Positions 5,501 to 60,171 of a DNA stretch of 64,000 nucleotides are shown here, piece after piece. Both the position numbers and the translations under genes were made by a program. This stretch comes from Tragulus kanchil. Lineage: Eukaryota > Chordata > Mammalia > Artiodactyla > Tragulidae. The first letter of the stretch is position 1. Every line of letters begins with the position of its first letter. The notes under the pieces are model-generated. The model made no database searches, had not been told where the DNA came from, and saw only the letters and a list, made by a program, of their open reading frames with translations. The stretch lies in the NCBI GenBank assembly GCA_022376925.1, contig JAIOJX010000002.1:41315501-41379500 (forward strand). Direction: 5' to 3'.

Positions 5501-5804
5501 TGGGGTGGGGGAGGCGCCAAGGGCAGGGACCACCGAGGCCTGAGCCCTCTTGCTCCTGTTCACTAAGCCTCTTTTCTCAAAGTTCCTGACTTCTTCATCA
5601 GCCAACTGATGACAGAATGAAATCATCAAACAGTACATCTAATTGTTCTACACATATTACTGGGCGCCTGCTGTGAGGTGGGAGCTGGTGGGTGGATGGT
5701 GGGGGCGGCAAGTTGGACCCCAGAGTCCACACGGTCCCCAAAACCTTAGCTTAAAAACTGCTTTATGCTTTAAACATATGTATGAAGAGTCTGAGGGACG
5801 GGGG

Positions 5805-6012
5805 TGGTGAGTCGTTCAGTCATGTTGGACTCTCTGCAATGCCGTGGACTGCAGTCTGCCAAGCTCCTCTATGCATGGGATTCTCCAGGCACTGATACTA
5901 GAGCGGGTTGCCATCTCCTTCTCCAGGAAATCTTCCCGAGCCAGGCAGGGGTGGAACCCGGGTCTCCTGCATTGCAGGCAGATTCTTTATCTTCTGAGCT
6001 ACCAGGGAAGAG
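5805..6012 (-). mobile_element. Bov-tA SINE, first copy
   Basis: On the minus strand this reads as a tRNA-Glu-derived head ('ccctggtagctcagaagataaagaatctgcctgcaatgcaggagacccgggttcca') followed by a BovA body ending near 'tgactcaccacc'. This is the ruminant Bov-tA arrangement. It lies at the start of the first copy of duplication 1. Short open frames over it are translated SINE, not genes. Confidence 0.85.
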
Positions 6013-6569
6013 CCTGTTGCCACAAAAAAGATGTGAACAGCCCTAGACATGAGTTGGAATATTCATCCCTGGAACCAGGCTGAGATGAGCTCTAAGATTC
6101 GGTGGCCACTTCGACACGTCAGTTCCACTGAGACTGCCCCAAAGTCAGTGTTATTTATAGACTGTCAGTAGATGGATTCAGAGCAGTAGACAGAGGGAAA
6201 ATACTAGATGTTTCCCACGCAGCTCATGATTGAAATTAATTTGAAACAAAAGCCAGCCGCACAAGATAGATCCAAGAAGAGGTCCACTGACGATGAAGTA
6301 TTATTATTTAAGTGCAGAGAACGTTCAAAGCCACATTGTAATATCATGCTAAGCCTTTTAGAGAAAAGCAAAATCGGTTTAATTTCTTGTATAAAAATTA
6401 ATCAATGTCTATTATTTCTGCCAACACATGCATTAAATAACAAAATCATCCCAAAACTGAAACTCAGGACTCAAGAAATCATCTTTACTCAAAGAACTAC
6501 TATCTAGGTTTCCAAACTTCACATTAAAACTAGATAGTTAACACAAAATATGTTTTGTCGTTTTTGTTT

Positions 6570-6725
6570 TTGTTTTTTTTTTTAATTGGATGTGCTGGGT
6601 CTTGGTCGTGGCGGATAAACTCTCAGTTACAGCCTGTGGGATCTAGCTCCCTGAACAGGGATCGAACCTGGGCCTCCTGCATTGGGAACTTGAGTTGTAG
6701 CCCCTGGACCACCACTGAAGTCCCC
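6570..6725 (-). mobile_element. CHR-type tRNA-Glu SINE, first copy
   Basis: A T-run at 6579-6593 is the reversed poly(A) tail. The right end, read on the minus strand, begins 'gggacttcagtggtggtccagg', the tRNA-Glu-like head of the cetartiodactyl CHR SINE family, followed by 'gttcgatccctgttcaggga'. Flanking AAAAT-rich sequence may be target-site duplication but is too simple to prove it. Confidence 0.75.
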
Positions 6726-6917
6726 AAAATGTATTTTTAAGTATGAAAGTGTGCAATACAAAAGAGGGCAAATCTCCACCACCGTCCATTTTCTGGCATG
6801 TGCTGATGGCGAATTTAGAAACTTATTGTTAAAGCACATGGTTGTCTCTGAAAGACAGATTGCATGGCACTCTCAAAGCCCGCGGTTTGTCTGTCTTAAA
6901 ACATCTGAGGAACGGGG

Positions 6918-7125
6918 TGGTGAGTCGTTCAGTCATGTTGGACTCTCTGCAATGCCGTGGACTGCAGTCTGCCAAGCTCCTCTATGCATGGGATTCTCCA
7001 GGCACTGATACTAGAGCGGGTTGCCATCTCCTTCTCCAGGAAATCTTCCCGAGCCAGGCAGGGGTGGAACCCGGGTCTCCTGCATTGCAGGCAGATTCTT
7101 TATCTTCTGAGCTACCAGGGAAGAG
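6918..7125 (-). mobile_element. Bov-tA SINE, second copy
   Basis: Same element as at 5805-6012, repeated because it lies inside duplication 1. The base sequence is the same over the SINE apart from the junction side, so it is not an independent insertion. Confidence 0.85.
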
Positions 7126-7682
7126 CCTGTTGCCACAAAAAAGATGTGAACAGCCCTAGACATGAGTTGGAATATTCATCCCTGGAACCAGGCTGAGATG
7201 AGCTCTAAGATTCGGTGGCCACTTCGACACGCCAGTTCCACTGAGACTGGCCCAAAGTCAGTGGTATTTATAGACTGTCAGTAGATGGATTCAGAGCAGT
7301 AGACAGAGGGAAAATACTAGATGTTTCCCACGCAGCTCATGATTGAAATTAATTTGAAACAAAAGCCAGCCGCACAAGATAGATCCAAGAAGAGGTCCAC
7401 TGACGATGAAGTATTATTATTTAAGTGCAGAGAACGTTCAAAGCCACATTGTAATATCATGCTAAGCCTTTTAGAGAAAAGCAAAATCGGTTTAATTTCT
7501 TGTATAAAAATTAATCAATGTCTATTATTTCTGCCAACACATGCATTAAATAACAAAATCATCCCAAAACTGAAACTCAGGACTCAAGAAATCATCTTTA
7601 CTCAAAGAACTACTATCTAGGTTTCCAAACTTCACATTAAAACTAGATAGTTAACACAAAATATGTTTTGTCGTTTTTGTTT

Positions 7683-7838
7683 TTGTTTTTTTTTTTAATT
7701 GGATGTGCTGGGTCTTGGTCGTGGCGGATAAACTCTCAGTTACAGCCTGTGGGATCTAGCTCCCTGAACAGGGATCGAACCTGGGCCTCCTGCATTGGGA
7801 ACTTGAGTTGTAGCCCCTGGACCACCACTGAAGTCCCC
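7683..7838 (-). mobile_element. CHR-type tRNA-Glu SINE, second copy
   Basis: Same element as at 6570-6725, 1,113 bp downstream, inside the second copy of duplication 1. Even the T-run length matches. Confidence 0.75.
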
Positions 7839-8018
7839 AAAATGTATTTTTAAGTATGAAAGTGTGCAATACAAAAGAGGGCAAATCTCCACCACCGTCC
7901 ATTTTCTGGCATGTGCTGATGGCGAATTTAGAAACTTATTGTTAAAGCACATGGTTGTCTCTGAAAGACAGATTGCATGGCACTCTCAAAGCCCGTCGGT
8001 TTGTCTGTCTTAAAACAT

Positions 8019-8550
8019 ACTGAATGCATGATACAAACTGGACACACCAGACTGGACATCCCCCCTTTCTGATGACAATGTTTGAGGACTCTGAGGGTGG
8101 GTCTGGCCTTGCTCCCCACCAGCCACGCACCCGTGCTTTCCCAGGAGGTTTGGGAATCCCACGGGAACCAGCCTGTGGGATCGTTTTTTATGAATCATTC
8201 TCACACCTCGCCCCTGCCACACCCCGAGATCCTGGCTGTTAGCAAAGAGTTATGCAACAAGAGGTGGCAGGCACCCCCCACGCTGGACCAGTCTGGTTCG
8301 AAAAGGGCCCTGGAGCCCCCGTGTTCGCACAAAGTCCTCCGGCCTTTGCCCACGCTCTCAGGAAGGAAATGGATTAAGTTGCTCAGTTAACATCGCCCCA
8401 AAACCGAGTTTTCTAGAAAAAGATGACTAACTTCTGATTTAAGGTGTCACCAGGAGGATGTCTTCACCCAGGATGCTAATTATTTACATTTTATTCTGTT
8501 TTCTTCTCTGCTGTTAAAAATGTTGATTTTTAGAATTAAGACTGAATGAG
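8019..8550. other. Unique noncoding DNA
   Basis: Single-copy sequence between duplication 1 and a CHR SINE. I see no gene, RNA or repeat in it, apart from the left target-site duplication of the following SINE at 8539-8550. Confidence 0.55.
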
Positions 8551-8880: not shown

Positions 8881-9705
8881 AGACTGAATGAGGAAGGAAA
8901 ACATCATTTCAGAGCATAGAGGATGCAAGCCTGGCCCAGGCTTGCGCAAGGAACTGACCCGTCACTAAGGACGCCACACTGCTGCCGTTGCTCCAGCAAC
9001 AAGCCTGCCTTGGGGGAGGAGTGTGGGTGACACAGGGGATCTGGAGGGTGCCCCCACTCATGAGTTCTGTGCAGCTGATCAGGTCAGTGGGTCCAGGATG
9101 CAGCCTTCAAGGGACCCCAAGGGGCCCCAAGACCACCCTGGGGCCAGGAGTTGAACAGAGAACAGTCTCTCCGCCCCATCTGTCCAGCCAGCCTGCAAGA
9201 AATCCATGCAGACCATCAATCAATGCATCAGAGTTATGTGTAAAGAATTCTTTCTCCTTGCAAAGTTATCAGCTTGGCAGCCTCCTTCCAATTCTGCTTT
9301 AAGCTTCTTCTCCTCAAAATACAAACCAGAAGGAATCCTCCTGGGTCAGCAGGCAGGTATGAAGATGGACTGTGGCCCTCACAATGGTCCAGCCTCCCAG
9401 CCCACAACCCCGTCCACGTAGAGGGTGGTGTTAGGCAAGGCCATGGGCTTCCAGCTTCTCCCCGGGTGGCTCTGGACTACCTGGGACACAGGCCTGGGGC
9501 ACTCCTTCAAAGACGACTCCCAGAGCATCTCAGCAGACAGAGCAGCCCGGAGTCCTGGGCAGGGGGAGGGTCTGGAACCACACTTCCAATAAGGCTCCCT
9601 GTGGGTCGTGTACACTGACATCTGGGGAAAGAGTGAGGGTCCCTTAAGCCCTTCCCACATCCCATGTGTTTGCTCTGCTCTTCAGAAGAACTAAGGTTCC
9701 CCCCG

Positions 9706-9734
9706 ACACACACACACACACACAAACACACACA
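9706..9734. repeat. (CA)n microsatellite, first copy
   Basis: CA run interrupted by one AA step. The second copy of the surrounding duplication has one CA unit fewer. Confidence 0.9.
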
Positions 9735-9811
9735 TCCCAGAAAGAGCTTGTCCTGAGCCAGGATCTCACCCTCTGCAGTCTGCCTTGGTGTCAGTAACTC
9801 TACAGCGTACT

Positions 9812-10025
9812 AGGGCTCTCCTGGTGGCTCAACGGTAAAGACTCCGCCTGCAATGCAGGAGACTAGGGTTCAATCCCTGGGTCAGGAAGATCCCCTGGAG
9901 AAGTAAATGGCAGCACACTCCAGTATTCCTGCCTGGGAAATCCCATGGACAGAGAAGCCTGGCAGGTGCAGTCCACGGGATCGCAAACAGTTGGACATGA
10001 CTGAGCATGCATGGGCACACACACT
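9812..10025 (+). mobile_element. Bov-tA SINE, first copy
   Basis: Plus-strand tRNA-Glu head ('ctctcctggtggctcaacgg', then 'gggttcaatccctgggtcagg') followed by a BovA body with 'ctccagtattcctgcctggg' and ending 'ggacatgactgagca'. Lies inside the first copy of duplication 2. Confidence 0.88.
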
Positions 10026-10840
10026 GTGAAATTCATCCAGAAGTTGTCACCTGAACAGAATGGGTAGAAACACCATGCGCGTCCATGCCTGACCCGTCAC
10101 TAAGGACGCCACACTGCTGCCGTTGCTCCAGCAACAAGCCTGCCTTGGGGGAGGAGTGTGGGTGACACAGGGGATCTGGAGGGTGCCCCCACTCATGAGT
10201 TCTGTGCAGCTGATCAGGTCAGTGGGTCCAGGATGCAGCCTTCAAGGGACCCCAAGGGGCCCCAAGACCACCCTGGGGCCAGGAGTTGAACAGAGAACAG
10301 TCTCTCCGCCCCATCTGTCCAGCCAGCCTGCAAGAAATCCATGCAGACCATCAATCAATGCATCAGAGTTATGTGTAAAGAATTCTTTCTCCTTGCAAAG
10401 TTATCAGCTTGGCAGCCTCCTTCCAATTCTGCTTTAAGCTTCTTCTCCTCAAAATACAAACCAGAAGGAATCCTCCTGGGTCAGCAGGCAGGTATGAAGA
10501 TGGACTGTGGCCCTCACAATGGTCCAGCCTCCCAGCCCACAACCCCGTCCACGTAGAGGGTGGTGTTAGGCAAGGCCATGGGCTTCCAGCTTCTCCCCGG
10601 GTGGCTCTGGACTACCTGGGACACAGGCCTGGGGCACTCCTTCAAAGACGACTCCCAGAGCATCTCAGCAGACAGAGCAGCCCGGAGTCCTGGGCAGGGG
10701 GAGGGTCTGGAACCACACTTCCAATAAGGCTCCCTGTGGGTCGTGTACACTGACATCTGGGGAAAGAGTGAGGGTCCCTTAAGCCCTTCCCACATCCCAT
10801 GTGTTTGCTCTGCTCTTCAGAAGAACTAAGGTTCCCCCCG

Positions 10841-10867
10841 ACACACACACACACACAAACACACACA
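10841..10867. repeat. (CA)n microsatellite, second copy
   Basis: Same locus as 9706-9734, one dinucleotide shorter. The length change shifts the copy offset from 1,135 to 1,133 bp downstream of it. Confidence 0.9.
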
Positions 10868-10944
10868 TCCCAGAAAGAGCTTGTCCTGAGCCAGGATCTC
10901 ACCCTCTGCAGTCTGCCTTGGTGTCAGTAACTCTACAGCGTACT

Positions 10945-11158
10945 AGGGCTCTCCTGGTGGCTCAACGGTAAAGACTCCGCCTGCAATGCAGGAGACTAGG
11001 GTTCAATCCCTGGGTCAGGAAGATCCCCTGGAGAAGTAAATGGCAGCACACTCCAGTATTCCTGCCTGGGAAATCCCATGGACAGAGAAGCCTGGCAGGT
11101 GCAGTCCACGGGATCGCAAACAGTTGGACATGACTGAGCATGCATGGGCACACACACT
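10945..11158 (+). mobile_element. Bov-tA SINE, second copy
   Basis: Duplicate of the SINE at 9812-10025, carried by the second copy of duplication 2. Not an independent insertion. Confidence 0.88.
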
Positions 11159-11210
11159 GTGAAATTCATCCAGAAGTTGTCACCTGAACAGAATGGGTAG
11201 AAACACCATG

Positions 11211-12182: not shown

Positions 12183-12644
12183 TTTGTGGTTACAAGAAGT
12201 GAGTGAAAAGATGGTGCCAGAGGACAGAGCCGAGTTTTCAAATGTGTTTATTTTCAGTAAATGAAAAAACTCCTCCAATAAAATTTAAGTGGAAGCCCAA
12301 TATATGAAACAGATAAAAACAGGACTGCTTTGAGTTGGATGCTTAGGACGACGGCCTGGAGCCTCCCGTAGCGAACGTCCTTCGTAACCTTCCTGCAGAC
12401 CTCCCGGCCCTTCAGCCAACACCACGTAAACTGTCGTCCGGGTGGAAGCCGTCCTGGAAAAGCAGACAGGAAGCCCATGACCCACTCTGTCATAAAAGCC
12501 ATGGGAACACTGGGGAAAGCTCAGACTGAAAGTTGTCCAGACGATCACCACAGCACCGGGTGTGTGTACTCGGGAAAAAATGCCAAGTTTCAGGAACAAC
12601 CGGGAGCTGTGTGGCATTCTACCTGGGCTCTTCCAGGCTCCCAG

Positions 12645-12960
12645 GTACCAGTGTCTTATTGCTGCTGTAACACATTACCACATACCTGGTGCCTTGAAAC
12701 TGCGCAGATTTATCGTCTTGCATTTCTGCAGATCAGAAGTTAGACATGGGTCTAACCGGCTGACATCCAGCCGGTGGGAGAGCTGACTGCCTCTCTCTGC
12801 TGGATCCGGGACCACCTGTGTCCTCCCTGCCAAAGCCTCCGCAGGCATCCTTCCTCCTCTGCTCACGGTCCCTCACCCTCCAGGCCAGCGGTGCGGAGTC
12901 TCTCCATGTCAGCACACAAAGCCATCAAAGAGCAGACCGCAACCCTGCCTGTGGGAGCTA
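12645..12960 (+). repeat. Ancient mammalian dispersed repeat, first copy
   Basis: The run 'ttattgctgctgtaacacattaccac', then 'ttgaaactgcgcagatttatcgtcttgca', then a 'gatcagaagttagacatgggtc' block matches a familiar old mammalian interspersed repeat (consensus like 'gctgtaacaaattaccacaaac'). I do not assign its class with certainty. It is inside duplication 3. Confidence 0.5.
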
Positions 12961-12968
12961 GGGAGCTG

Positions 12969-13090
12969 GGGGGACGTCCCTGGTGGACCAGTGTGGACTC
13001 TGAGCTGCCACCACACTGGCCCCCGGCTCCATTCCTGGTTGGGGAACTAGATCCTGCATACTGTAATTTAAAAGATCCCTTGGTGCACAG
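12969..13090 (+). mobile_element. CHR-type SINE fragment, first copy
   Basis: Starts 'ggggacgtccctggtggacc' and includes 'attcctggttggggaactag', both diagnostic of the CHR SINE head. The middle is diverged and the 3' tail is missing or degraded. Confidence 0.65.
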
Positions 13091-13812
13091 ACATCTTGGG
13101 AGAAGAGGCACCGCAGAGAGGAGCCTCAACCTCAGGTACGCTGTGGAGGACGCGATGTGCCATTCACGGAGGGGAGGGCCTTGGCCAGCCTGGCCACGGC
13201 GACTCAGGCATGGACGCGGCAGGGAAGGTGACACAGGGAACACGAGCACTTTGAAGGCGGCCCCAGCCTTCATCACAAGCCCGATTCCCCGGTACCTGTT
13301 GGTTTCTACCTTCACACAAAGACAAAAGCGCTCAATTTGCCTGGATTCTTTTTGTGGTTACAAGAAGTGAGTGAAAAGATGGTGCCAGAGGACAGAGCCG
13401 AGTTTTCAAATGTGTTTATTTTCAGTAAATGAAAAAACTCCTCCAATAAAATTTAAGTGGAAGCCCAATATATGAAACAGATAAAAACAGGACTGCTTTG
13501 AGTTGGATGCTTAGGACGACGGCCTGGAGCCTCCCGTAGCGAACGTCCTTCGTAACCTTCCTGCAGACCTCCCGGCCCTTCAGCCAACACCACGTAAACT
13601 GTCGTCCGGGTGGAAGCCGTCCTGGAAAAGCAGACAGGAAGCCCATGACCCACTCTGTCATAAAAGCCATGGGAACACTGGGGAAAGCTCAGACTGAAAG
13701 TTGTCCAGACGATCACCACAGCACCGGGTGTGTGTACTCGGGAAAAAATGCCAAGTTTCAGGAACAACCGGGAGCTGTGTGGCATTCTACCTGGGCTCTT
13801 CCAGGCTCCCAG

Positions 13813-14128
13813 GTACCAGTGTCTTATTGCTGCTGTAACACATTACCACATACCTGGTGCCTTGAAACTGCGCAGATTTATCGTCTTGCATTTCTGCAGA
13901 TCAGAAGTTAGACATGGGTCTAACCGGCTGACATCCAGCCGGTGGGAGAGCTGACTGCCTCTCTCTGCTGGATCCGGGACCACCTGTGTCCTCCCTGCCA
14001 AAGCCTCCGCAGGCATCCTTCCTCCTCTGCTCACGGTCCCTCACCCTCCAGGCCAGCGGTGCGGAGTCTCTCCATGTCAGCACACAAAGCCATCAAAGAG
14101 CAGACCGCAACCCTGCCTGTGGGAGCTA
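13813..14128 (+). repeat. Ancient mammalian dispersed repeat, second copy
   Basis: Duplicate of 12645-12960 carried by the second copy of duplication 3. Confidence 0.5.
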
Positions 14129-14136
14129 GGGAGCTG

Positions 14137-14258
14137 GGGGGACGTCCCTGGTGGACCAGTGTGGACTCTGAGCTGCCACCACACTGGCCCCCGGCTCCAT
14201 TCCTGGTTGGGGAACTAGATCCTGCATACTGTAATTTAAAAGATCCCTTGGTGCACAG
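14137..14258 (+). mobile_element. CHR-type SINE fragment, second copy
   Basis: Duplicate of 12969-13090, 1,168 bp downstream, within duplication 3. Confidence 0.65.
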
Positions 14259-14520
14259 ACATCTTGGGAGAAGAGGCACCGCAGAGAGGAGCCTCAACCT
14301 CAGGTACGCTGTGGAGGACGCGCGATGTGCCATTCACGGAGGGGAGGGCCTTGGCCAGCCTGGCCACGGCGACTCAGGCATGGACGCGGCAGGGAAGGTG
14401 ACACAGGGAACACGAGCACTTTGAAGGCGGCCCCAGCCTTCATCACAAGCCCGATTCCCCGGTACCTGTTGGTTTCTACCTTCACACAAAGACAAAAGCG
14501 CTCAATTTGCCTGGATTCTT

Positions 14521-16867
14521 TTTTGAAAACAACCAAAATGGAGTGGAAAAGACTGCGACAGACACGCCCACCCCCACAGCCATGCGGGCTGAGCACTCAG
14601 AGGCCAGGCAAGGTCTATGGATCCAGCAAACCCGTGCATTAGACATCACGATTACCCCGTTTCACAGAGGAAAAGCCTAAAGGGTCAGAGGGTAAGGGTG
14701 AGCTTGCCCTGGTCACAGCTGCCGAGGGAGCTTGGTCAGTGTTTGAAACCTATGTCAGCCCATCCAAGCAGCACTGCTGGAGTGGGCCGTCACCACGGCA
14801 ACAACCCCAGGACGGCTCTTACTCCAGCTTCTTCCCCCACCCCCCGCCTTGCTGCCTAATTTAGTTCGGTTCCAGAGGGTCAATAAATTTATTATTTTAA
14901 AGGAAAATGAAAACATTCCAGAAGAACATTCGAGTATGATTCCAAGCTCAAAAGAACACAAGGATCACTTTACAAAGAAGTGCTCTAATGAATGAACTCT
15001 TCATGGGGGGTGGGGAGCAAGAGGAAAAATAAAGCTGGATTTCCTTGGGATCAGCTCAGCCCTTTAATTCTGACTCTCGGTTACTAACAAAACATTCTCC
15101 TGCATAGAGCTTCACCTCACGGCTTTATCAAACAGGAAACTGTGGGAACCTTCACCAAAATTGATTCTTACATTCTTCTAATAAATCATCAGCTTTTCCA
15201 TTGTCCTTTCAATAAATTTTTAGGAAAGAAAGGAAACTACAATAAATTCTCCAGAATTCGAGAGCTGTTGACGGATGCCGCTGTCTCTCCCGCCTTCCTC
15301 TGAAAAGGACTCCAGGAGAATCAAAGGAAAGATGCACTTTTTAAAAGAAAGAAAAAGGGGGGAAGAAAAAACCTAAATGAAGAATCTAAGTGGAAAGCAA
15401 GACTAAGAAACATTTATTTACAAGGAAAGAGGAAGCATCGGCTGACCTTTGTGACAGTGGAGGTCGTGGCCATCCCTCCCTCCAGCCGCTGCTCCCGGCC
15501 TCTGCTGGGCCCCTGGGAGGGTCTCCTTCCCACTCTCTCCTGGGAAACACCACCCCGCTTCATTTACCTTCACACAGATGATGCCCAGGTCTGTGTCTCC
15601 CGCCCCAGCCTCACTCTCAGGTTCTGGTCCTGGAGCTCAGACCGTCCGCCGGGCGTCCCCACAGCCTCTTACGGGCACCATCGCCCAGGAGTTCCACACC
15701 AGAGCCCCGTTCCCCACTCCTTACCCAGCAGCTCTGCAGCGCTGTCCATTCAGGCTCCAATGCAGGCCTGAGAGTCCCCCGGCAGCCATGCCCTCGTCCC
15801 TCCCAGGCCCAGCTCCACGGCATCCACACCACTTCTCTGCTCCGCGGCCTGTCCGTGCTGCCCGTTGAGTCCTGCTCATGCCCAACCACCCACCACCTTC
15901 CCTCCAGCTACGGATGCCGGAGGCCAGACTCGAGCTCCATGAAGCCTCCTCTACGCTGTGCGGCAGGCAGATGCACCCAGTGGACTCTGTGGGTGGAGGC
16001 AGGGGCAGGGTTCCCGGGCACTGCGGGCCGGCCTGACCACTCAGACGCACCAGGAATGGCAGGCAGGGAGGCGAAAGGCGGTGCTCCCGGGCTGGACTCA
16101 GGTGTGCGCAGGAGAGGCAGCTGGGGCCACACGGCCCAGTTCCCTAAACGCTGTCTGCCCCAGTTCTGAGGTCAGCACACTCAGTTACATCCACACCCAG
16201 TCCTCTAAGGGGCTCTCACACTCCGGGCCTCTCCACCACCCTCCTCCGCCGGCCAGGCCACAGCCCCAGACCCAACTAGAATCTTCATCATGATGGGCCT
16301 CATCCAGCTATCCCGCCCAGCTCAGTCCTTCCCACCACAGAGCTGCTCCCTCCAGACTGTAGGCGCCCCAGTTCCACTTCCTCCCCTGATGTGCAGCTGG
16401 CCTCCCCACCCCTAGCAAACCCTGTGAGGAAGACAGGCAGGCCGCCGGGGTCTACGACGTCAGCATCAGCTTGACCCCTCCTCGCAGGCGCTGCCCCCAC
16501 AGGCTGGCCAGGCAACTCACCTCTGGGGCCTACGTGAACCGCCTCTGGTCTAGACGAGCAAAGGCCACCCCTGCTCCTCTGCTCCAGTGCACCAGCTGCT
16601 GTCTAGCCCCCTCACCAGGGAAGGCAGCGGTCTCTTCCATCATCACTTCAAACTGTCACTTACATCTTCAGTGACAGCGTCTATCTCCAACCTCAGAGGT
16701 CTTCCTGCTGGAGGCAAAGCCCCCAGGACTGGGAGGGGCTTGGGTTTGGAGGAAGCAGCTACGGCCTGATGCCAGAAGTGTCCCTGGGAGCTCCAGCCAG
16801 GCTCCTCCCAGCCCTGGGGCTCTGCTGCCTCACTTCCACTTTGGAAACAACGAGGCTAGCCCCCCAA
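14521..16867. other. Unique noncoding DNA, AT-rich 14860-15420 then GC-rich
   Basis: The first part is AT-rich and repeat-poor, with runs such as taaatttattattttaaagg and caataaatttttagg. From about 15440 the sequence becomes GC-rich and cytosine-rich on this strand. No exon is recognisable. A MIR-like core lies near 14638-14740. Confidence 0.55.
14638..14745 (+). repeat. MIR SINE remnant
   Basis: Blocks 'attaccccgtttcacagagg', 'aaaagcctaaagggtcagag' and 'agcttgccctggtcacagctg' follow the order of the MIR core (cattttacagatg, gaaactgaggc, cttgcccaaggtcacacagct). Confidence 0.55.
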
Positions 16868-21417: not shown

Positions 21418-21665
21418 GAAGGGCCGCCTGACGGCTCCAGCCAAGCGGCGGAAGGCTCAGGGGGTCCCTCTGCAGGCCCTGCTGTGGGGGCAGTGCCCTT
21501 CCCCGTGGAGAGGACGGGTTGGGGATAGTAGTCTGGCCCACGGAGGGGTCTCTGCGGATGCCCATTTCAGCCAGGTCACCTTCTCTCTCTTTCTCTGCTT
21601 GTTTTCAGTCCAGTGGGGCATTTACGGGCAGACCTCATTTTGTTTTTTGACTGTTCCTCAGTTTC

Positions 21666-21688
21666 TGTGTGTGTGTGTGTGTGTGTGC
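21666..21688. repeat. (TG)n microsatellite, first copy
   Basis: An uninterrupted TG run directly adjoining a BovA fragment, a common arrangement at BovA ends. Confidence 0.9.
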
Positions 21689-21795
21689 TCAGTTGTGTTA
21701 GACTCTTTCCATGGACTGTAGCTCACCAGGCTTCTCTGCCCATGGAATTTTTCAGGCAGGAATACTGGAGTGGCTTGCCATTTCCTGCTGCAGGT
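21687..21795 (-). mobile_element. BovA SINE fragment, first copy
   Basis: The plus strand reads 'gctcagttgtgttagactc', 'ccatggactgtagctcacc' and 'aggaatactggagtggcttgcc', the reverse complement of a BovA body. The tRNA head is absent. Confidence 0.85.
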
Positions 21796-48650: not shown

Positions 48651-49410
48651 TCCAATCTTATTGAGAAATAATTGACATCCACCACTGTATATGTTTAATG
48701 TGCACAGTACGATGGTTTGATATATACATATATTGTGAAATGATTACAGTTCCTTGACTAAAGTCCGTCATCCCCTATAGATACAATAAAGAGAAAAGAA
48801 AAACCTCTCTGTTTGTGATGAGACTGTTAGGACTTACTCCTGCAGCTTCCCTGTAATCACAGAGCAGGGCTGACCTATCACCTTCTCCTTAGTCATCTTA
48901 GGACAGATGCGGTGACACTGGGAGCACTGCCCTCAAATCTGTAACCACCCACCCGATCTCTTTTTCTATCAGCTTGACGGGTTGGAGGTTGTTGTCCTTG
49001 TTCTAATATTAAGAAAGATCACGCATCATTTGTCTTCACTTGTCTCACTCAGCATGAAGCCCTGAGGCCCACCCTTGCCGGCACGAGTGGTAGGCTTGCC
49101 TCCGCTTCATTGCTAAGTAGGATTCCATTCTGTGTGTGTGTGTGTGACTTCTTTACCTATTCATTCACCAGCAGGCCCATGGGTGGTTTCTATGTCTTAG
49201 CAATTGCAATGGATTAATGTTAAAATGAACCTGGGAATGAACATATATTTTTAAGTTATTGTTTCCATTTCCTTTGGATAAACACCTAGACATAGAACTG
49301 ATGAATTGCATGGTAGTTCTATTTTTCACTTTTGAGGAACCTCACACTGTTTCCACAGTGACTGCACAATTTACATTCATTTCAGGTCTAAAATGCCACT
49401 TTCACCAAAT
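48651..49410 (+). mobile_element. Ancient L1 (L1M-type) remnant
   Basis: Follows an old L1 3' region: 'ttgagaaataattgacatcc', 'gatggtttgatatatacatatattgtgaaatgattac', 'gtgatgagactgttaggac', 'acttgtctcactcagcatgaagccc', 'taagtaggattccattctgtg', a TG run, 'tttcctttggataaacacc', 'gcatggtagttctatttttcac' and 'aggaacctcacactgtttcc'. Diverged with small deletions. Its last ~200 bp lie in the first copy of duplication 12. Confidence 0.7.
49131..49146. repeat. (TG)n run
   Basis: Eight TG units inside the ancient L1. Confidence 0.85.
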
Positions 49411-49662
49411 TGTAAGCCCACCTCAACCTAGGGGTCAAAGTGCCTTAAAAGAAAACAGCAAGTCCCTAGTGGAAGCAGGCACATCTCTGAAGGGTGGCTT
49501 GGAGGAGAGTCCCTTCCTTTATCATTAAGGATTACACAGAGGAAAAGTAAATCTTTGCCATCTTCAAAACTTTACACACTCAGCGACTTCCTTGTCACAA
49601 GAGCGGATGTTAACTAACACACTTCTGGGCTTTAGTGCCATTGCTTAAAAGAAGAACAACAG

Positions 49663-49810
49663 GGGAAGTCCCTGGTGGTCCAGTGGCTAAGACTCTGTGC
49701 TCCCAATGCAAGGTGTCCAGGTTCGATCCGTGGTTAGGAAACTAGAGCCCACATGCTACAACTGAGAGCCAATGCAGCCAAATAAATATAAATAAAATAT
49801 TTTTTAAAAA
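49663..49810 (+). mobile_element. CHR-type tRNA-Glu SINE, first copy
   Basis: Begins 'gggaagtccctggtggtcc' and includes 'ccaggttcgatccgtggtta' and an A-rich tail. Target-site duplication AAGAACAACAG (49652-49662) and AAGAACAATAG (49811-49821), one mismatch. Confidence 0.9.
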
Positions 49811-50750
49811 AAGAACAATAGTTCACCTCTAGGCAAGTGTTTGTGCTGGCATTGAGCCACCCGTGTGAAGGGCCCACTGCCACCAGCAGAGCCTCCTCTG
49901 CACCCCCATGCCCCCCACACACCCCAGAGTGCTTCCCCTTGTGGAGTTCAGCTGCTGCCCTTGCCCTGGGGGCCACCATGCCCTCTGGGATCAGTCCTTA
50001 CTCGGTGACGGCTGTGCCCCCCCCAGGCCTGTGTCTCTGCTGAGGAGGGGCGGCACATGCTCACCTGGACCCTCCTGCTGCCACCACGATGACACCTCCA
50101 CCACCCCCAAACCACCAGGGACCACGCAGCCCAAGGGGGACACCTGTGCCTACAAACGTGCATGGAGACGGGCGCCGCCATCACAGGGCCACCGCCAGGC
50201 CGGGGACCCCTCCCTCCGCGGGAGCCACTGCACACTGGGTCGTCCGTGCCGGCGCGTGGACTGCCCGCCAGCAGAGGGTGGGCCACGCCCGCGACAATGG
50301 ATTAATGTTAAAATGAACCTGGGAATGAACATATATTTTTAAGTTATTGTTTCCATTTCCTTTGGATAAACACCTAGACATAGAACTGATGAATTGCATG
50401 GTAGTTCTATTTTTCACTTTTGAGGAACCTCACACTGTTTCCACAGTGACTGCACAATTTACATTCATTTCAGGTCTAAAATGCCACTTTCACCAAATTG
50501 TAAGCCCACCTCAACCTAGGGGTCAAAGTGCCTTAAAAGAAAACAGCAAGTCCCTAGTGGAAGCAGGCACATCTCTGAAGGGTGGCTTGGAGGAGAGTCC
50601 CTTCCTTTATCATTAAGGATTACACAGAGGAAAAGTAAATCTTTGCCATCTTCAAAACTTTACACACTCAGCGACTTCCTTGTCACAAGAGCGGATGTTA
50701 ACTAACACACTTCTGGGCTTTAGTGCCATTGCTTAAAAGAAGAACAACAG

Positions 50751-50898
50751 GGGAAGTCCCTGGTGGTCCAGTGGCTAAGACTCTGTGCTCCCAATGCAAG
50801 GTGTCCAGGTTCGATCCGTGGTTAGGAAACTAGAGCCCACATGCTACAACTGAGAGCCAATGCAGCCAAATAAATATAAATAAAATATTTTTTAAAAA
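50751..50898 (+). mobile_element. CHR-type tRNA-Glu SINE, second copy
   Basis: Duplicate of 49663-49810 at offset 1,088 bp, with the same one-mismatch target-site duplication, so it is not a separate insertion. Confidence 0.9.
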
Positions 50899-51382
50899 AA
50901 GAACAATAGTTCACCTCTAGGCAAGTGTTTGTGCTGGCATTGAGCCACCCGTGTGAAGGGCCCACTGCCACCAGCAGAGCCTCCTCTGCACCCCCATGCC
51001 CCCCACACACCCCAGAGTGCTTCCCCTTGTGGAGTTCAGCTGCTGCCCTTGCCCTGGGGGCCACCATGCCCTCTGGGATCAGTCCTTACTCGGTGACGGC
51101 TGTGCCCCCCCCAGGCCTGTGTCTCTGCTGAGGAGGGGCGGCACATGCTCACCTGGACCCTCCTGCTGCCACCACGATGACACCTCCACCACCCCCAAAC
51201 CACCAGGGACCACGCAGCCCAAGGGGGACACCTGTGCCTACAAACGTGCATGGAGACGGGCGCCGCCATCACAGGGCCACCGCCAGGCCGGGGACCCCTC
51301 CCTCCGCGGGAGCCACTGCACACTGGGTCGTCCGTGCCGGCGCGTGGACTGCCCCCCAGCACAGCCTGAGCCACGCCCGCGA

Positions 51383-53830
51383 CAGTGGCTCCCGCCCCGT
51401 GGACGCGCTCTGCTTCCTCACGTCTTCAGCCGCACGGCTCACAGATGCTTGATCCCACACCAGGTCCTGAGAGTCTGTCTTCCTGTCTCTTTTGCTGGTT
51501 TCCTCAAAACAGAGCTCAGTGTTCTTTTTTCTCTACGAACATTTTGAAGATTCTGGGTCTCCATTGCCCAGAAAGAACGCACCCTCCCCAAGCGTGACGC
51601 GTACCTCTCGGACATCCAGGACCCTCGTTCCCAGGCAGGGAAGGAGCCTGAAGCCTTGTGCCTTAGGGGGCCAGGAGGAGGTGAGCCTGCAGACCACCCT
51701 GGTCCCCATGGCTTGGCTTGGGAGGCACCCTCCTTGAGCCTGGAGACAGCAGCACGCCTGCAGCGCAAGCCCCGCCCAGCTCCCCACCCCTGTGCTCTGC
51801 CCCAGCCGTCCTCCCTCCTCCGCGCTGACGCACAAGCGTCCCCTGACTCAGCGCTCACCCTCAGGCTATGTCCTCTGCTCTCCCTCCCGTTTCTCAGTGT
51901 GGCAGGTCCCCAGCGAGGTCAGACCCTCCCTTGCCTCCTCCAGTCACTTCCTAAATCCACCTTCTCTCCCAGGAAAACCCTAAATGTGTCATCTCACGTC
52001 TGTTTTCTCTGTTAGTGCTTCTCTGAGACCCTGAAAGAAGCTGCGGATGCTGCCCTGGAGGAAGGCAAGCCTTGGGACTCGGGCCTCTGCGACATCCTCT
52101 CTTCTGAGCGCGGGGACAAGGGAGCGCGATGGCCAGTGCCCACGGACGGGCTCCCGAGCGCCTCCGTGTGGTGGGAGCCTTGGCCACCCTCCCCGCCCAG
52201 AGCCCGGGACAAACCTCCAAGAGAACAGAGCTGCTGAGCTGCCGGCTGGGAGAGAGGGCGGGATTACAGACTGTAATTCAAGCTAATATTTGAGGCTTGG
52301 CAAGTGCACCTCTGGGACTTCTTGAAAACCCCCGAATCTTTCTCGTTTCAGAGCAATTAAGCCGACCCCAGCGTCCTGGCTCCAGGAAGCCGCGAGGCTC
52401 CGGGTTTACTGCCATTTCCTCTCCCTAAGCCGCTCCAGCTCCATCCCGGCCGGTTGGTGCCACCGAGGGGCCCCAAGAGCCACCAGTGTGGGCCGGGGCG
52501 GGGGCGCGGGCGGCCACAGGTACATGTGGCTTCCAGGCCGCGGGCCGAGGCAGTGATGTGTGGTATAATCGAAAACATCCCGCAGTAATTTAATAGTTCC
52601 CACCAAGCACAGACACGAAGTCTAGCAGCCCTTCCCTCCACGCGCTGAACCCTGGGGCCCCGGTGGGGGGTGGGGGGGAGTCCAGAGCCAGTGCCAGGGA
52701 ACTTTCCTGCTTCCCTTTGAGTCTGGCTCTGATGTTACACAGAAAGATGTGAGCTCTGGAAATGTGCAGAAAGCAGAGACGGACGTGCAATGCCTTGTCC
52801 AGCTCTGGTGGTGGGACAGGGGCAGAGCGAGGACCCTCACACACTGGGGAAGCCCGGCCACCCGGAGGATGGAAAGGAAAGGCGCATCAGTCAGCACAGC
52901 AGCCAGCGGCAGCCTTTCATGAAAAGCACCTGAGTCCCATGTGGATGCAAGGGGAGCGAACTGACTGGAGGTACTCTGAGGCCACATTCCTCCTCCTCCC
53001 ACCTCTGAGAGCCATCTCTGGGGGAGGACACCAGGCAGCCCTGCCTGTGAGCGGATTCCATAGCCAGGCAGGTGACAAGTGGAGGCGCGAGCTTGGGAAG
53101 AAGTCTCTTCCGGTTATAAGCTTTCTTTTTAAATTACGATCAGTTTCCCTGAAATTAGTCACACACCATTGCCTAAACTTTCCGTATTTGATAAGATCAG
53201 TGGCTGCCCGAGGCTGTGGCTTGTGGTCTGATCTGTCTGAGGCTCTGCTGTTAAGGCCAGCGGACAGGGGTGTCTGCACACACGTGCACCGAAGCCTCCA
53301 GGGCACCCAGAACCGTCCTGCAGGGACCCCTGTCTGGCTTCCCCCAAAGCACTCAAGGAATGCAGACGAGAGTCCCTGACGCACTAAGGCGGGCTCTAAG
53401 CCACTTGCAGACTCCCTGGCGTCACCCCGCCTCGGAGCCAGGAGCCGCTGGCCTCCCCGGGGAGCTGGCCCCCGACGTGGGCGCAGGAGACCAGCTGGGC
53501 CGGTGCCCTCAGAGGGGCCTCTCTGGGCTCCCCTAGTGTATCTGCAGGGGGCTGATGTCCTGTTCCGGCTGGTGCGCAGGAGCCAGGGAGTGCTGGAGAA
53601 GCCCTGGGCACAGAACGCGGTGGCTGTGGGGCAGGGTGGGGCTCTCACGGCTTCACTGTGAGATGAGAGTTGGTGCTGAGGCAGCCCCAACCACGGGGGC
53701 CTCTAGAAAGCAGACGAGGCGGGCGGGGGTTCCTGAGGGAGCTCAGGGAGGCCCTGGCTACCCGGAGGCGAGAGAGCCCTCCAGCCAACAGAGCTGCGTA
53801 GCCGACGGACGGATCCACGTGACCGGAGGG
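51383..53830. other. Unique noncoding DNA with a CpG-rich patch
   Basis: Single-copy GC-rich DNA. Minus-strand frames reach 257 codons (52917-53690), but with no domain I recognise, so they are treated as chance frames. The CpG-rich patch is listed separately. Confidence 0.5.
52350..52570. promoter_or_regulatory. CpG-rich patch, possible small CpG island
   Basis: About 17 CpGs in about 200 bp (cgcgagg, ccggccgg, gggcgcgggcggcc, gccgcgggccg), repeat-free and flanked by AT-rich words (attacagactgtaat at 52264-52278; gcagtaatttaatagttcc at 52580-52598). It could be a minor regulatory island. No transcript is evident. Confidence 0.35.
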
Positions 53831-55998
53831 AATTAAGAGCGGACCCTACAGCAGCCCTAAGGGTGGGTCGTCCACCCCAGGCGCTGTGTCTGCCTCCCCA
53901 CCAGGCCCTACCCTGGGCAGAGCAACGGGTGGGGCACCTCAGGTGGGACAGAGCCTCTCAGGGATCACACGCCCGTCCCCCACCGGGTCTGACAGCCCAA
54001 ATCCCCCAAGTATCGGAACCAGGACCCCAGCCTGGACTAGGGCTGGGAGGAGCCTCCTCTCCAGACCAGGTTCTCGGTGTGGTGCCACCCTCCACGCTGT
54101 CTGATGAGAAAGTTCTCTATCAGATATAAGATATTTGGTATGCATTTATATAACACAAGATATGGTATTTGTGAATTGACATCTTTGATTAACACAGACA
54201 ACTTCACAAGAATACCATGTCGCTGTTGGGTGGGAAAAGTCGGGTTGGATGAGAACGTGGGTGTCAGCTGTGAAATGAATCCTGATGGCAGCATTCTGCA
54301 TCCCATCCCAGCGAGATCCACCTCCCAGAAGCCCTGGAAACCGAAACCATCAAAACCAGAGACTGAGCTGCGTCAGACTCATCTGGGCCTGTCTTTTCTC
54401 CACTTTCTTTGAGGTTAAACGTTGTTAAAACCATGATTCAGACTGAACCTGGCAGGGTCTGTGGTTCCTTTAGTGTGTTGCCACCTGCACCCCAGTCTCG
54501 AGGCCAGTGTTTCTGCTGTCCCTAGAGGACCCTGGGCAACTGGGGCTTTGAGCGTGTTTCCCTGGGTCCCTTAGAAACTCCCGACGCAGCCTCACCCTGA
54601 GCGTCCCCAGCACTGGGGTCGGGGGGGCGGGGTGTCCCTGCTAGGCAGGTGTTCCCACAGTCCCACGCCGAATTGGGCTGTGGTCCCTCCAACACAAGGT
54701 TGTGTGTCCCTGCATCCGCTCCCTCTCCCTGGAAGCCCCCGGCCACCTAGACAGGAACTGCTCCACTGCCCTTGGCTGAAGGCCACCAACTCCACTCGGC
54801 AGGCCGTGCCCGCATGTGCATCACCCCCCTGCATCTGACCTCACTCTGCTAAAGCCCCACGGCTTTTCCCATCAAGAGTCACTTTTCCCAGAGCCTCTTT
54901 GTGGCAGACGGAGTGTACAATTAAGAGCGGACCCTACAGCAGCCCTAAGGGTGGGTCGTCCACCCCAGGCGCTGTGTCTGCCTCCCCACCAGGCCCTACC
55001 CTGGGCAGAGCAACGGGTGGGGCACCTCAGGTGGGACAGAGCCTCTCAGGGATCACACGCCCGTCCCCCACCGGGTCTGACAGCCCAAATCCCCCAAGTA
55101 TCGGAACCAGGACCCCAGCCTGGACTAGGGCTGGGAGGAGCCTCCTCTCCAGACCAGGTTCTCGGTGTGGTGCCACCCTCCACGCTGTCTGATGAGAAAG
55201 TTCTCTATCAGATATAAGATATTTGGTATGCATTTATATAACACAAGATATGGTATTTGTGAATTGACATCTTTGATTAACACAGACAACTTCACAAGAA
55301 TACCATGTCGCTGTTGGGTGGGAAAAGTCGGGTTGGATGAGAACGTGGGTGTCAGCTGTGAAATGAATCCTGATGGCAGCATTCTGCATCCCATCCCAGC
55401 GAGATCCACCTCCCAGAAGCCCTGGAAACCGAAACCATCAAAACCAGAGACTGAGCTGCGTCAGACTCATCTGGGCCTGTCTTTTCTCCACTTTCTTTGA
55501 GGTTAAACGTTGTTAAAACCATGATTCAGACTGAACCTGGCAGGGTCTGTGGTTCCTTTGCGTGTGTTGCCACCTGCACCCCAGTCTCGAGGCCAGTGTT
55601 TCTGCTGTCCCTAGAGGACCCTGGGCAACTGGGGCTTTGAGCGTGTTTCCCTGGGTCCCTTAGAAACTCCCGACGCAGCCTCACCCTGAGCGTCCCCAGC
55701 ACTGGGGTCGGGGGGTCGGGGTGGCCCTGCTAGGCAGGTGTTCCTACAGTCCCACGCCGGGAATTGGGCTGTGGTCCCTCCAACACAAGGTTGTGTGTCC
55801 CTGCATCCGCTCCCTCTCCCTGGAAGCCCCCGGCCACCTAGACAGGAACTGCTCCACTGCCCTTGGCTGAAGGCCACCAACTCCACTCGGCAGGCCGTGC
55901 CCGCATGTGCATCACCCCCCTGCATCTGACCTCACTCTGCTAAAGCCCCACGGCTTTTCCCATCAAGAGTCACTTTTCCCAGAGCCTCTTTGTGGCAG
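53831..55998. repeat. Direct duplication 13 (copies 53831-54908 and 54919-55998)
   Basis: About 1,078 bp repeated, offset 1,088 bp, with 10 filler bases (cggagtgtac). Differences cluster in the last 450 bp of the first copy: ctttagtgtg/ctttgcgtgtg, gggggggcggggtgtcc/gggggtcggggtggcc, tgttcccac/tgttcctac and cgccgaatt/cgccgggaatt. Confidence 0.95.
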
Positions 55999-56258
55999 AG
56001 GCCAGTCCCGAGGTGGCCCCAGTCCCCAGGTGGCCCCATTCTCAAAGGGATCCCAGTACTGAGATGGCCAAAGTCATGAGGCAGCCCCAGTCCGGAGGTG
56101 ACCCCAGTCTCAAGGTGACCCCGGTCTGGAGGTGGCCCCAGTACTGAGGCAGCCCCAGTCCTGAGGCGACCCGTCTCGAGGTGACCCCAGTCCCAAGGGG
56201 GCCCCAATCTCGAGGTGACCCCAGTCTGGACTTGGCCTGTCCTGAGGTGGCCCTCCAT
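55999..56258. repeat. Minisatellite of about 18 bp period
   Basis: About fourteen imperfect units of the form 'gaggtgaccccagtctc' follow each other, with variants ggtggcccc and ggcagcccc. On the minus strand they translate to repeated GHLETG/GHLRTG-like words, which is only a by-product. Starts right after the second copy of duplication 13 ends. Confidence 0.85.
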
Positions 56259-57800
56259 TCTGTGGTCTGAAGCAGATGAGAAGAGCAAGGGACACGCAGA
56301 AACAGTCACTGACCGTGGGTGGACCCCACCTCCCTCCCACCCTCCCTATCCCCGGAGGCCGACTGCTTCCTAACTTCTTTCTGAAACTGAAACAACACGT
56401 TCATCCCGGAATCAAATCCCTTCAAGCCAGCGCAGTAATTCTCCAAGCATGTGCGTTTTCATCTTCATCTCCAGTGATTAAGTGGAAATTTCATGTCTTG
56501 TTACAGGAATGCCCGGTCAGGAGGAGAAACTCTGGGTGAAGCCTCCCTTCACCTAAACCCACAACGAGGGTTCTGCGAGGCCGGCCTGCGGGGCCGCGTG
56601 CCTGCACATTGCTCAGCCTGGCCCCACCCGCCCTCCGAGACCTCCCTCCTGCCCCTTCCCTCAGCCGGCTCCCACTCGGACCGCACATCATGGAGAACTG
56701 CTCTGACACCCCACACTCTTCCTGATTTCAGGACAGGGTGTGAAGGTGCCTTGCCGGGATGAGGGGACAAAGATGGGGAGATGAGAGGGGCCTCCAAAGG
56801 GCTGGGACCCCAGGAAGCCTCTGTCTTTGCCCGTGCGGAGCAGCAGCCCCCAGGAAAGTCGGAAGGACCTCAGGTCTGATGACCCCATAAGACAAGAGGA
56901 AGTGTGGAGAAGCACGGGTCTGTGCCACTATGCAGGTCGCAGTCACCGCGGGGCGGGGGGGGGGGACACAAAACAGGAGGTCTGAAGACGCAGGTCCCCG
57001 AAGAAGTGCTCCGGGGCCCCGCCCACCCCCGCGCATCTGCTCATGGGCGGGGATGCACACCACTGAGCGACTCTGACTTTCAAAGAAGCAGATTCCTCAT
57101 CACTTTGATAAATTCACAAATGCCGCCACAAAAGACATTTAAAGCAAGACTTGCCACTGAGCCAGCCCCTAGACCGGGCTAATGTCTCTGTAAACACCAT
57201 GAGGACACACCGCTTCATCTGTGGTCCCGTCCGCCGCGCAGGGTGCAGGGCTCATCCTTCCGAAAGTCAATATTTGCAGAGAAAGAAAAGAGTGGGATTG
57301 GCTAAGCCAGTTTTTCAGGCCCAGTGCAGAAAAGTAACAATCTGATTTATTTCTTCCCCTGTTCTGTTCTATTAAAATGAACCCGTGCAGAAAGTGGTCT
57401 TCCCATTCGCGTGTGTTTTATGAAGGGGAGGCACATGCTGAGTGAACGGCTCTCAAGGTACGAAGGTGCCCTTGGCAGCTGTTCCACACGAGGGGGACGG
57501 AAGCTGGGTTTCCTGGGAGAGTCTTGGTCAATAGCTGGCTGGAGCCAGCTTACCCCGCCCACCGGGGAAGCCCACTCTGCCCACCCCTTCACATCCCTGC
57601 TGAGGGACAGCACGCTGCGGGCTTAGATCAGCCATGGGAGGGGATCCCCACCACTGAAACCAGCAAACCTTACACCCGGCTCTGGTCCCCAGAGACCCAT
57701 CAACCCTTCAGCGGGGAAATCAAGGTCGAAGACCAGAAACAGACGAAGGCCTCTGCCTGACACGGGGCCCCAGTGACGAGGGGCTCTTGAGTTCCTTAAT
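56259..57800. other. Unique noncoding DNA
   Basis: GC-rich single-copy DNA with an 11-G run at 56955-56965 and AT-richer parts (56400-56500, 57330-57420). No gene is recognised. Confidence 0.5.
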
Positions 57801-57820
57801 GGCCTCAAGAATCACCCACA

Positions 57821-58295
57821 AACACTGTTATCAAACACTGAATGGCCTTGACGGCTAGCTCTTGCTGCAGGTTTAATAATGCTTCTTAAGAAATTCAACC
57901 TAATGACAGATACCGTATATTAACACATACATATAGAGTCTAGACAGATGCTACTGATGGTCTTTCACACAAAGCAGTCAAGGAGACACAGATGTAAAGA
58001 ACAGACTTTTGGACTCAGTGGGAGAAGGAGAGGGTGGGGTGATTGGAGAACGTCGTATTGAAGCATGTACCTTACCACATGTAGAATAGGGAACCCGTGT
58101 GAGTTTGATGCGTGAAGCAGGGCACCCAAGGCCGGTGCTCCGTGACAACCTGGAGGGACGGGTGGGGCGGGGCACCAGGAGGGAGGGGACACATGTATAC
58201 CTGTGGCCAATTCATACCGATGTATGGCAGACACCATCACAACGTGGTAAAGCAATTATCCTCCAATGAAAACAAATAAATAAAATTTTTAAAAA
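57821..58295 (+). mobile_element. Retroposon 3' end, probably L1 3' UTR type, first copy
   Basis: The common ruminant 3'-end sequence is recognisable: 'agtctagacagatgctactgatgg', 'agacacagatgtaaagaacagac', 'ctccgtgacaacctgg', 'ggacacatgtatacctgtgg' and 'gtaaagcaattatcctccaatg', ending in AATAAATAAAATTTTTAAAAAA. A near-match AGAATCACCCACA (57808-57820) and AGAAATCACCCACA (58296-58309) probably form the target-site duplication. The first ~90 bp of the span may not belong to it. Confidence 0.65.
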
Positions 58296-60171
58296 AGAAA
58301 TCACCCACACAGCTGCAAATCAGGATGTGGCTGATGGAAACCATCGCTAGCTAAAGCAGGAGCCCCTTCCTTGAGCCCACCCCTCACAACTGCTCTGCGC
58401 CTCCTGACAACCCCCTCGGCTCCCCTGGCCGGAGGTCAGAGTCAGAGAGCTGCAGCCCGCCCGGAGGCCACACAGACGGAGCCCAGAGTGGAGGCTCAAA
58501 TCCTGCCAGCCAGAGCAAACCCCCCCCACCACATTCAAAGGGCTCTTTCTGCTGTTGGCTTTGCCCCTCCTCAGCGCTGCTCTCGGACGACCTGATCCAG
58601 CCGTTTGTGTTCTGCGTGGCTCTCCATCAACACCTGCACTGTCACACGGTCACTGTTCTCTGTGCCGAGTCGGTTAGGACCTCAGGGTGTGGCAGAGCCT
58701 TGCCAGGATCTGGACGGTTGCCTCCTCACAGAAGTGTGGTCTAAAGTCCAGAAAAATGACGACCACGCGCTCAGGCCCCAGAGCTAGCTACACACGTCTC
58801 TTAAAAAAGACCTCTCATCCTTAAATGTCATACGCTTCCTGAAACAAAATTAGCGATCGCTTTGTAATGTCAGGGTTGAGAATAAGACCTTTTTATTAAC
58901 ACTCAAAACCCTGAAGGAGGGTCCAGATGCAACAGCAGATTCCTTGTAAATTACCAAAGGAAAGACGAGGCCTCCAAAAGGGACTCCTTAGAAAGAATTC
59001 CTTCCCAGTCCGATGAAATCCAGCTACATTGAGCAGGTGTTAGTGGAGCGGGAGGAGGGTTCCTGGCCCTCCTCCTCCAGACACAGATGTAAAGAACAGA
59101 CTTTTGGACTCAGTGGGAGAAGGAGGGTGGGGTGATTGGAGAACGTCGTATTGAAGCATGTACCTTACCACATGTAGAATAGGGAACCCGTGTGAGTTTG
59201 ATGCGTGAAGCAGGGCACCCAAGGCCGGTGCTCCGTGACAACCTGGGGGGACGCGTGGGGCGGACCACCCGGGGGAAGGGGACACATGTATACCTGTGGC
59301 CAATTCATACCGATGTATGGCAGACACCATCACAACGTGGTAAAGCAATTATCCTCCAATGAAAACAAATAAATAAAATTTTTAAAAAAGAAATCACCCA
59401 CACAGCTGCAAATCAGGATGTGGCTGATGGAAACCATCGCTAGCTAAAGCAGGAGCCCCTTCCTTGAGCCCACCCCTCACAACTGCTCTGCGCCTCCTGA
59501 CAACCCCCTCGGCTCCCCTGGCCGGAGGTCAGAGTCAGAGAGCTGCAGCCCGCCCGGAGGCCACACAGACGGAGCCCAGAGTGGAGGCTCAAATCCTGCC
59601 AGCCAGAGCAAACCCCCCCCACCACATTCAAAGGGCTCTTTCTGCTGTTGGCTTTGCCCCTCCTCAGCGCTGCTCTCGGACGACCTGATCCAGCCGTTTG
59701 TGTTCTGCGTGGCTCTCCATCAACACCTGCACTGTCACACGGTCACTGTTCTCTGTGCCGAGTCGGTTAGGACCTCAGGGTGTGGCAGAGCCTTGCCAGG
59801 ATCTGGACGGTTGCCTCCTCACAGAAGTGTGGTCTAAAGTCCAGAAAAATGACGACCACGCGCTCAGGCCCCAGAGCTAGCTACACACGTCTCTTAAAAA
59901 AGACCTCTCATCCTTAAATGTCATACGCTTCCTGAAACAAAATTAGCGATCGCTTTGTAATGTCAGGGTTGAGAATAAGACCTTTTTATTAACACTCAAA
60001 ACCCTGAAGGAGGGTCCAGATGCAACAGCAGATTCCTTGTAAATTACCAAAGGAAAGACGAGGCCTCCAAAAGGGACTCCTTAGAAAGAATTCCTTCCCA
60101 GTCCGATGAAATCCAGCTACATTGAGCAGGTGTTAGTGGAGCGGGAGGAGGGTTCCTGGCCCTCCTCCTCC
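57984..60171. repeat. Direct duplication 14 (copies 57984-59078 and 59079-60171)
   Basis: About 1,094 bp repeated without filler; the junction reads 'cctcctcc|agacacagatg'. The second copy differs in its first 200 bp: two bases lost (ggagagggtgg/ggagggtgg), and a run of changes in the G-rich part (58151-58190 against 59245-59281). After that the copies agree. The duplication cuts the retroposon 3' end, so the second copy has only its last part. Confidence 0.95.
59079..59388 (+). mobile_element. Retroposon 3' end, second copy (left part missing)
   Basis: The second copy begins inside the element at 'agacacagatgtaaagaac', because the duplicated unit starts there. The right end and poly(A)-like tail are as in the first copy. 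Confidence 0.65.

Follow-up and report, generated by a model that had tools for sequence, protein, structure and literature searches.

Fourteen direct duplications of nearly fixed length in a Tragulus kanchil contig, very probably overlaps written twice during assembly

Background

Which process writes many unrelated segments of DNA twice, head to tail and at almost one size? The question is raised by a stretch of 64,000 nucleotides (the window) from the assembly GCA_022376925.1 of Tragulus kanchil (contig JAIOJX010000002.1, positions 41,315,501 to 41,379,500), in which 14 adjacent two-copy direct repeats of about 1.1 kb are found between window positions 5,790 and 60,171. In this work, we describe these duplications, the differences between their copies and the sequences found at their junctions, and evaluate the explanations that may account for them. 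Judged from the letters of the window, the duplications are very probably an assembly artefact, whatever the program responsible: overlapping pieces would have been abutted, and their overlaps left unmerged.

Results

Anatomy and regularity of the duplications

Repeats were located by k-mer diagonals and a repeat search, and their limits were set by local alignment. All 14 duplications listed in an earlier note were recovered at its coordinates by the k-mer, repeat and local-alignment searches, and 13 of its 14 offsets stand as given, the fourth being 1101 rather than 1102 bp. In order, the offsets are 1113, 1135, 1168, 1101, 1109, 1130, 1078, 1118, 1123, 1081, 1113, 1088, 1088 and 1095 bp. 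In 9 of the 14 units (2, 3, 5-8, 11, 13 and 14) small indels shift the offset by 1-3 bp from one core block to another. The units, in window coordinates, are the following.

Unit 1, 5790-8023: copies 5790-6908 and 6904-8023, strict core 5801-6882 and 6914-7995; offset 1113; three interior substitutions, 6119-6151.
Unit 2, 8954-11210: copies 8954-10077 and 10089-11210; offset 1135/1133; at 9706, an AC run differing by 2 bp is the sole interior difference.
Unit 3, 12183-14523: copies 12183-13353 and 13351-14523; offset 1168/1170; one interior 2-bp indel at 13151; through chance matches, the local alignment overruns to 13379 and 14552.
Unit 4, 16860-19025: copies 16860-17924 and 17959-19025, strict core 16888-17924 and 17989-19025; offset 1101; no interior difference.
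Unit 5, 21418-23651: copies 21418-22530 and 22527-23651, cores 21418-22514 and 22527-23622; offset 1109/1108; no interior difference.
Unit 6, 27192-29418: copies 27192-28290 and 28322-29418; offset 1130/1127; no interior difference; overlaps unit 7.
Unit 7, 29162-31310: copies 29162-30235 and 30240-31310; offset 1078/1075; no interior difference; first part also at 28035-28290.
Unit 8, 32679-34908: copies 32679-33794 and 33797-34908; offset 1118/1116; no interior difference.
Unit 9, 35521-37751: strict core 35521-36628 and 36644-37751; offset 1123; no interior difference; degraded, poorly alignable extension to 35472 and 36619.
Unit 10, 37680-39875: strict core 37686-38747 and 38767-39828; offset 1081; no interior difference; degraded extensions; the first 66 bp of the core in three copies.
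Unit 11, 40842-43066: copies 40842-41956 and 41955-43066; offset 1113/1110; no interior difference.
Unit 12, 49207-51388: copies 49207-50300 and 50295-51388, strict core 49207-50266 and 50295-51354; offset 1088; no interior difference.
Unit 13, 53824-55999: copies 53824-54908 and 54909-55999; offset 1088-1091; six interior differences, 54472-54670.
Unit 14, 57984-60171: copies 57984-59078 and 59079-60171; offset 1095/1093; seven interior substitutions, 58154-58183.

The regularity of the series is its most conspicuous feature. Over 14 units of unrelated content, the offsets range only from 1,078 to 1,168 bp, with a mean of 1,110, a standard deviation of 24.5 and a coefficient of variation (CV) of 2.2%; the smallest CV among simulated sets was 8.7% (exponential and lognormal lengths, the latter with log-SD 0.5 and 0.25; 20,000 sets of 14 for each distribution). 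All units are adjacent and direct, and in blastn local alignments their copies are 99.2-100% identical. In the local alignments used to set the limits, each unit contributes 1,063-1,191 identical bases, and 15,561 bases are aligned overall; some of these alignments (units 3, 9, 10 and 12) overrun the true ends by 1-30 bases. Throughout the window, 30-mers recur only at spacings of 1,050-1,199 or 2,200-2,249 bp, the latter because units nest there; the first repeated 30-mer starts at 5,801 and the last ends at 60,171. No 30-mer recurs in inverted orientation within the window, and the window does not contain a single N.

Stretches present in three copies

The earlier note held that each unit is repeated once: this is true in general, but two stretches, 28,073-28,275 and 36,563-36,628, occur three times. 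They do so because, if the junctions are taken as piece boundaries, the pieces concerned measure only 1,914 and 2,169 bp, less than the sum of their own two overlaps; nested triples are the required outcome for overlapping pieces of such a length. The short piece behind the first triplicate runs from about 28,322 to 30,235, and the segments 28,035-28,290, 29,162-29,418 and 30,240-30,493 are copies of the same DNA that lie, respectively, where a piece ends, inside a piece and where a piece starts. Four single-base losses distinguish them, three restricted to the piece-start copy and one to the piece-end copy: at all four indels the interior copy has the majority state.

Differences inside the copies

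Away from their ends, the two copies are identical in 9 of the 14 units (4-12). The remaining five contribute 18 interior events over 12,761 interior aligned bases: three in unit 1, one each in units 2 and 3, six in unit 13 and seven in unit 14. The seven substitutions of unit 14, whose copies are otherwise nearly identical, all lie inside a G-rich sequence of 30 bp (58154-58183, compared with the copy 1,093 bases downstream), and may represent either heterozygous sites in a cluster or an error of the consensus confined to this place. More generally, the interior differences of these five units may stem from errors of consensus or of polishing, or reflect heterozygosity.

This bears on a first alternative, according to which the two haplotypes of the animal were set in tandem (a heterotype false duplication). 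The clusters inside units 1, 13 and 14 could indeed be heterozygous sites, as this explanation would have it. Haplotype-specific variants along the copies were not found, however: the few events are confined to five units, 16 of the 18 are clustered in three of them instead of being spread, and a pair of haplotypes gives no reason for a length fixed at 1.1 kb. With most interiors identical, two haplotypes in tandem were rejected as the source of the series, and we regard this origin as very unlikely.

Differences at the ends of the copies

If overlapping pieces had been abutted, copy 1 would finish at the end of a piece and copy 2 would begin at the start of the next one, whereas the matching sites of the other copy would be located inside a piece. 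Consensus errors are therefore expected at the 3' end of copy 1 and at the 5' start of copy 2, and the observed placement of errors matches this expectation. The 100 bp next to the alignment ends contain 38 events, against 18 elsewhere (1.36 vs 0.141 per 100 bp, about tenfold denser), leaving aside 16 events at which the alignment had entered the other copy (units 3, 9, 10 and 12).

The events are also polarized. In the filtered set, the copy lying at a piece end shows 24 losses and 4 gains (p=1.8e-4 assuming independent events, although events at one unit end are not mutually independent). Before filtering, 54 end events are counted vs 18 elsewhere, and the piece-end copy shows 29 losses against 6 gains. 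When the 5' end of unit 9, which aligns poorly, is dropped from the filtered set as well, 33 end events, 19 losses and 4 gains remain. When only cleanly anchored events are taken, with at least 10 matches on either side, 11 losses and no gains are found, distributed over 9 unit ends (p=0.004 when ends are counted).

Sequences at the junctions

Strictly identical cores are separated by spacers of 0-87 bases. For 10 of the 14 junctions, alignment of the spacer with the true flank of one or both sides outscored alignment with every one of 300 random flanks: the match is with the 5' continuation in units 4-8, 11 and 14, and with the 3' continuation in units 1, 10 and 12, the 5' side of unit 1 reaching p=0.017 in addition. 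Most spacers are thus the overlap carried on at low quality, not inserted DNA. The layout of the pieces, the spacers and the end differences together suggest that the junctions are piece boundaries.

These results bear directly on a second alternative, that 14 unrelated segments were really, and recently, duplicated in tandem. The interior differences of five units could be read in its favour. The length is, however, nearly fixed despite unrelated content, differences are concentrated at the ends with a polarity of loss towards piece ends, and a degraded flank is recognized at 10 of the 14 junctions. Copies alike up to clean breakpoints, as in a biological tandem duplication, were not found, with the exception of unit 3, which has no spacer. 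To our knowledge, no biological process gives such a series. We reject real duplication on the grounds of the nearly constant length, the crowding of differences at the ends and the polarity of loss, and consider it extremely improbable. In its most explicit form, a local process acting in the germ line of the animal, or in the source of the cells, would have copied about 1.1 kb in tandem at 14 sites within 48.5 kb, and so recently that nine units are still identical inside, the end differences being scars of repair; to this proposal we give hardly any credence.

Other features of the window

The window was taken for ruminant nuclear DNA; it is CpG-depleted, with an observed/expected ratio of 0.40. 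Apart from the series, blastn self-comparison detects dispersed repeats, at about 70-93% identity, and one minisatellite. The former resemble ruminant short interspersed elements (SINEs): parts of them look BovA/Bov-tA-like, and their heads tRNA-derived. ARAGORN predicts a tRNA-Gly at 49,669 and at 50,757, which are the two copies, in unit 12, of one SINE-like head. Rfam searches gave no match at gathering scores, and no Pfam match up to E 0.1 was found in 10 of the 137 open frames of at least 110 amino acids. Among 10 of 18 coding-like stretches, Pfam returned one match just above its own cut-off and one below its own cut-off. Individual features are listed here.

43701-43783 and 48767-48849: direct repeat of 83 bp, 92.8% identity, 5,066 bp apart, separate from the 1.1 kb series.
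46069-46230, minus strand: open stretch matching Pfam Feld-I_B (Fel d 1 chain), E 2.8e-5, 24.5 bits vs a cut-off of 24.1.
56002-56253: minisatellite with periods of 17, 34 and 68 bp, directly after unit 13.

Feld-I_B belongs to the secretoglobin family. The stretch at 46069-46230 is located outside the duplicated units, and comparing it with solved structures gave no hit up to an E of 1; from its sequence, it is possibly a decayed secretoglobin exon, or a chance match.

Discussion

The observations collected above agree with the proposal, already contained in the earlier note, of abutted contig ends with about 1.1 kb of overlap, which is supported by the length, adjacency and nesting of the units, by their interiors, by the end errors and by the spacers. 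The stretch would have been assembled from 15 consecutive pieces, neighbours having some 1.1 kb of genomic DNA in common; at the 14 boundaries, pieces would have been written in succession with the overlap unmerged, and each overlap would consequently appear twice, head to tail.

As to the step at which this happened, the pieces themselves offer some indications. The 13 complete ones measure 1,914-8,346 bp, with a mean of 4,013, and such short pieces, with a near-fixed overlap, look like unstitched consensus blocks rather than independent scaffolded contigs; the same combination suggests that adjacent blocks share one node. In wtdbg2, a node is 1,024 read bases long and a bin 256 bases, and the consensus program expects an overlap of about one node between adjacent layout units, to be stitched. 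The overlap could thus be one fixed-length node common to adjacent consensus blocks of a wtdbg2-type long-read assembler; stitching of the blocks would have failed across the whole stretch, and later polishing would have made the copy interiors identical. The nearly fixed overlap, with its mean of 1,110, is 8% above the node length, which counts raw-read bases: if bases are lost from raw reads more often than gained, a node of 1,024 read bases would cover a slightly longer stretch of the genome. Taken alone, this specific cause appears to us plausible, if somewhat short of probable.

Alternatively, a scaffolder or a gap closer may have abutted overlapping contig ends without Ns, the 1.1 kb being a property of a minimum overlap or of corrected reads. 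This would be the same class of error at another step, and the probability that we assign to it is contained within that of the artefact as a whole. Contigs of 1.9-8.3 kb, as the 13 complete pieces would have to be, are however very short when built from long reads, an overlap governed by read length or by a minimum should vary beyond a CV of 2.2%, and the window is free of Ns; we regard this variant as possible, if less likely than not.

A number of points weigh against unmerged overlaps, or against wtdbg2 as their source. The 18 interior differences, of which 16 form clusters in units 1, 13 and 14, are not predicted by the double use of one polished overlap. When unit ends, rather than events, are counted, the polarity is weak without the anchoring filter (12 vs 4, p=0.077), and it amounts to 11 vs 4 (p=0.12) without the unit 9 end and to 13 vs 4 (p=0.049) without any filter. 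The second triplicate (66 bp at 36,563) has no difference among its copies, and is uninformative. Flank continuation was not seen at 4 of the 14 junctions (units 2, 3, 9 and 13), unit 3 lacking a spacer altogether. Copies in the window are not separated by an N gap, whereas the published class of homotype false duplications, as presented in passages of PMC8081667 and PMC9516828, mostly features an N or a read-depth gap. Concerning wtdbg2, a bin quantum, which would have supported it, was not found: neither 256 nor 277.5 bases emerge as a quantum of the 13 piece lengths (R 0.13 and 0.22, respectively; best period p=0.19), a sample of little power. Finally, in the parts of the literature covered, only the general class of error is described, with no account of such a failure of wtdbg2; passages of PMC9668749 and PMC7367183 contributed nothing decisive.

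Removal of one copy per unit would take away 15,540 bases, in keeping with the surplus of about 15.5 kb initially proposed, and leave 48,460 of the 64,000, the surplus being equal to 32% of the remainder. If the pattern held assembly-wide, the size of the assembly would be inflated by about a third, and counts of exons, genes, copy numbers and segmental duplications would be wrong. The signature described here, composed of end differences, loss polarity, three-copy vote and degraded-flank spacers, may serve to flag such artefacts from sequence alone, without reads.

Comparison with known assembly artefacts

Other systems share some, but not all, of these features. False segmental duplications, in the portion of PMC2864568 consulted, are likewise spurious near-identical duplications made by assembly software; they concern polymorphic diploid regions assembled twice, while here 9 of the 14 units are identical inside. 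The two-binary design of wtdbg2 is described in passages of PMC9915519, and its contig layout with edge sequences in passages of PMC8434745: wtdbg2 produces the layout with edge sequences first, and the consensus follows in wtpoa-cns. No source showing such duplications was found among the extracts on these programs, and no bin quantum was recognized in the lengths of the 13 complete pieces.

The closest likeness is with the homotype false duplications of the Vertebrate Genomes Project (VGP), which, according to the sections of PMC8081667 considered, arise at contig boundaries from overlapping sequence and appear, after scaffolding, in tandem with a gap; one example was traced there to a FALCON bug. 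The follow-up study, in the part seen of PMC9516828, relies on read depth, gaps and discordant read pairs to recognize them. As in the VGP homotype class so described, the same locus is found in tandem at what are probably piece boundaries, the boundary consensus is poorer, and most units are devoid of a haplotype-like spread of differences; unlike that class, 14 boundaries fall here within 54 kb, all with one nearly fixed length. From its sequence features the window thus appears to fit the homotype class of false duplications, except for the absent N between copies: the artefact belongs to a known kind, and its density and regularity are unusual.

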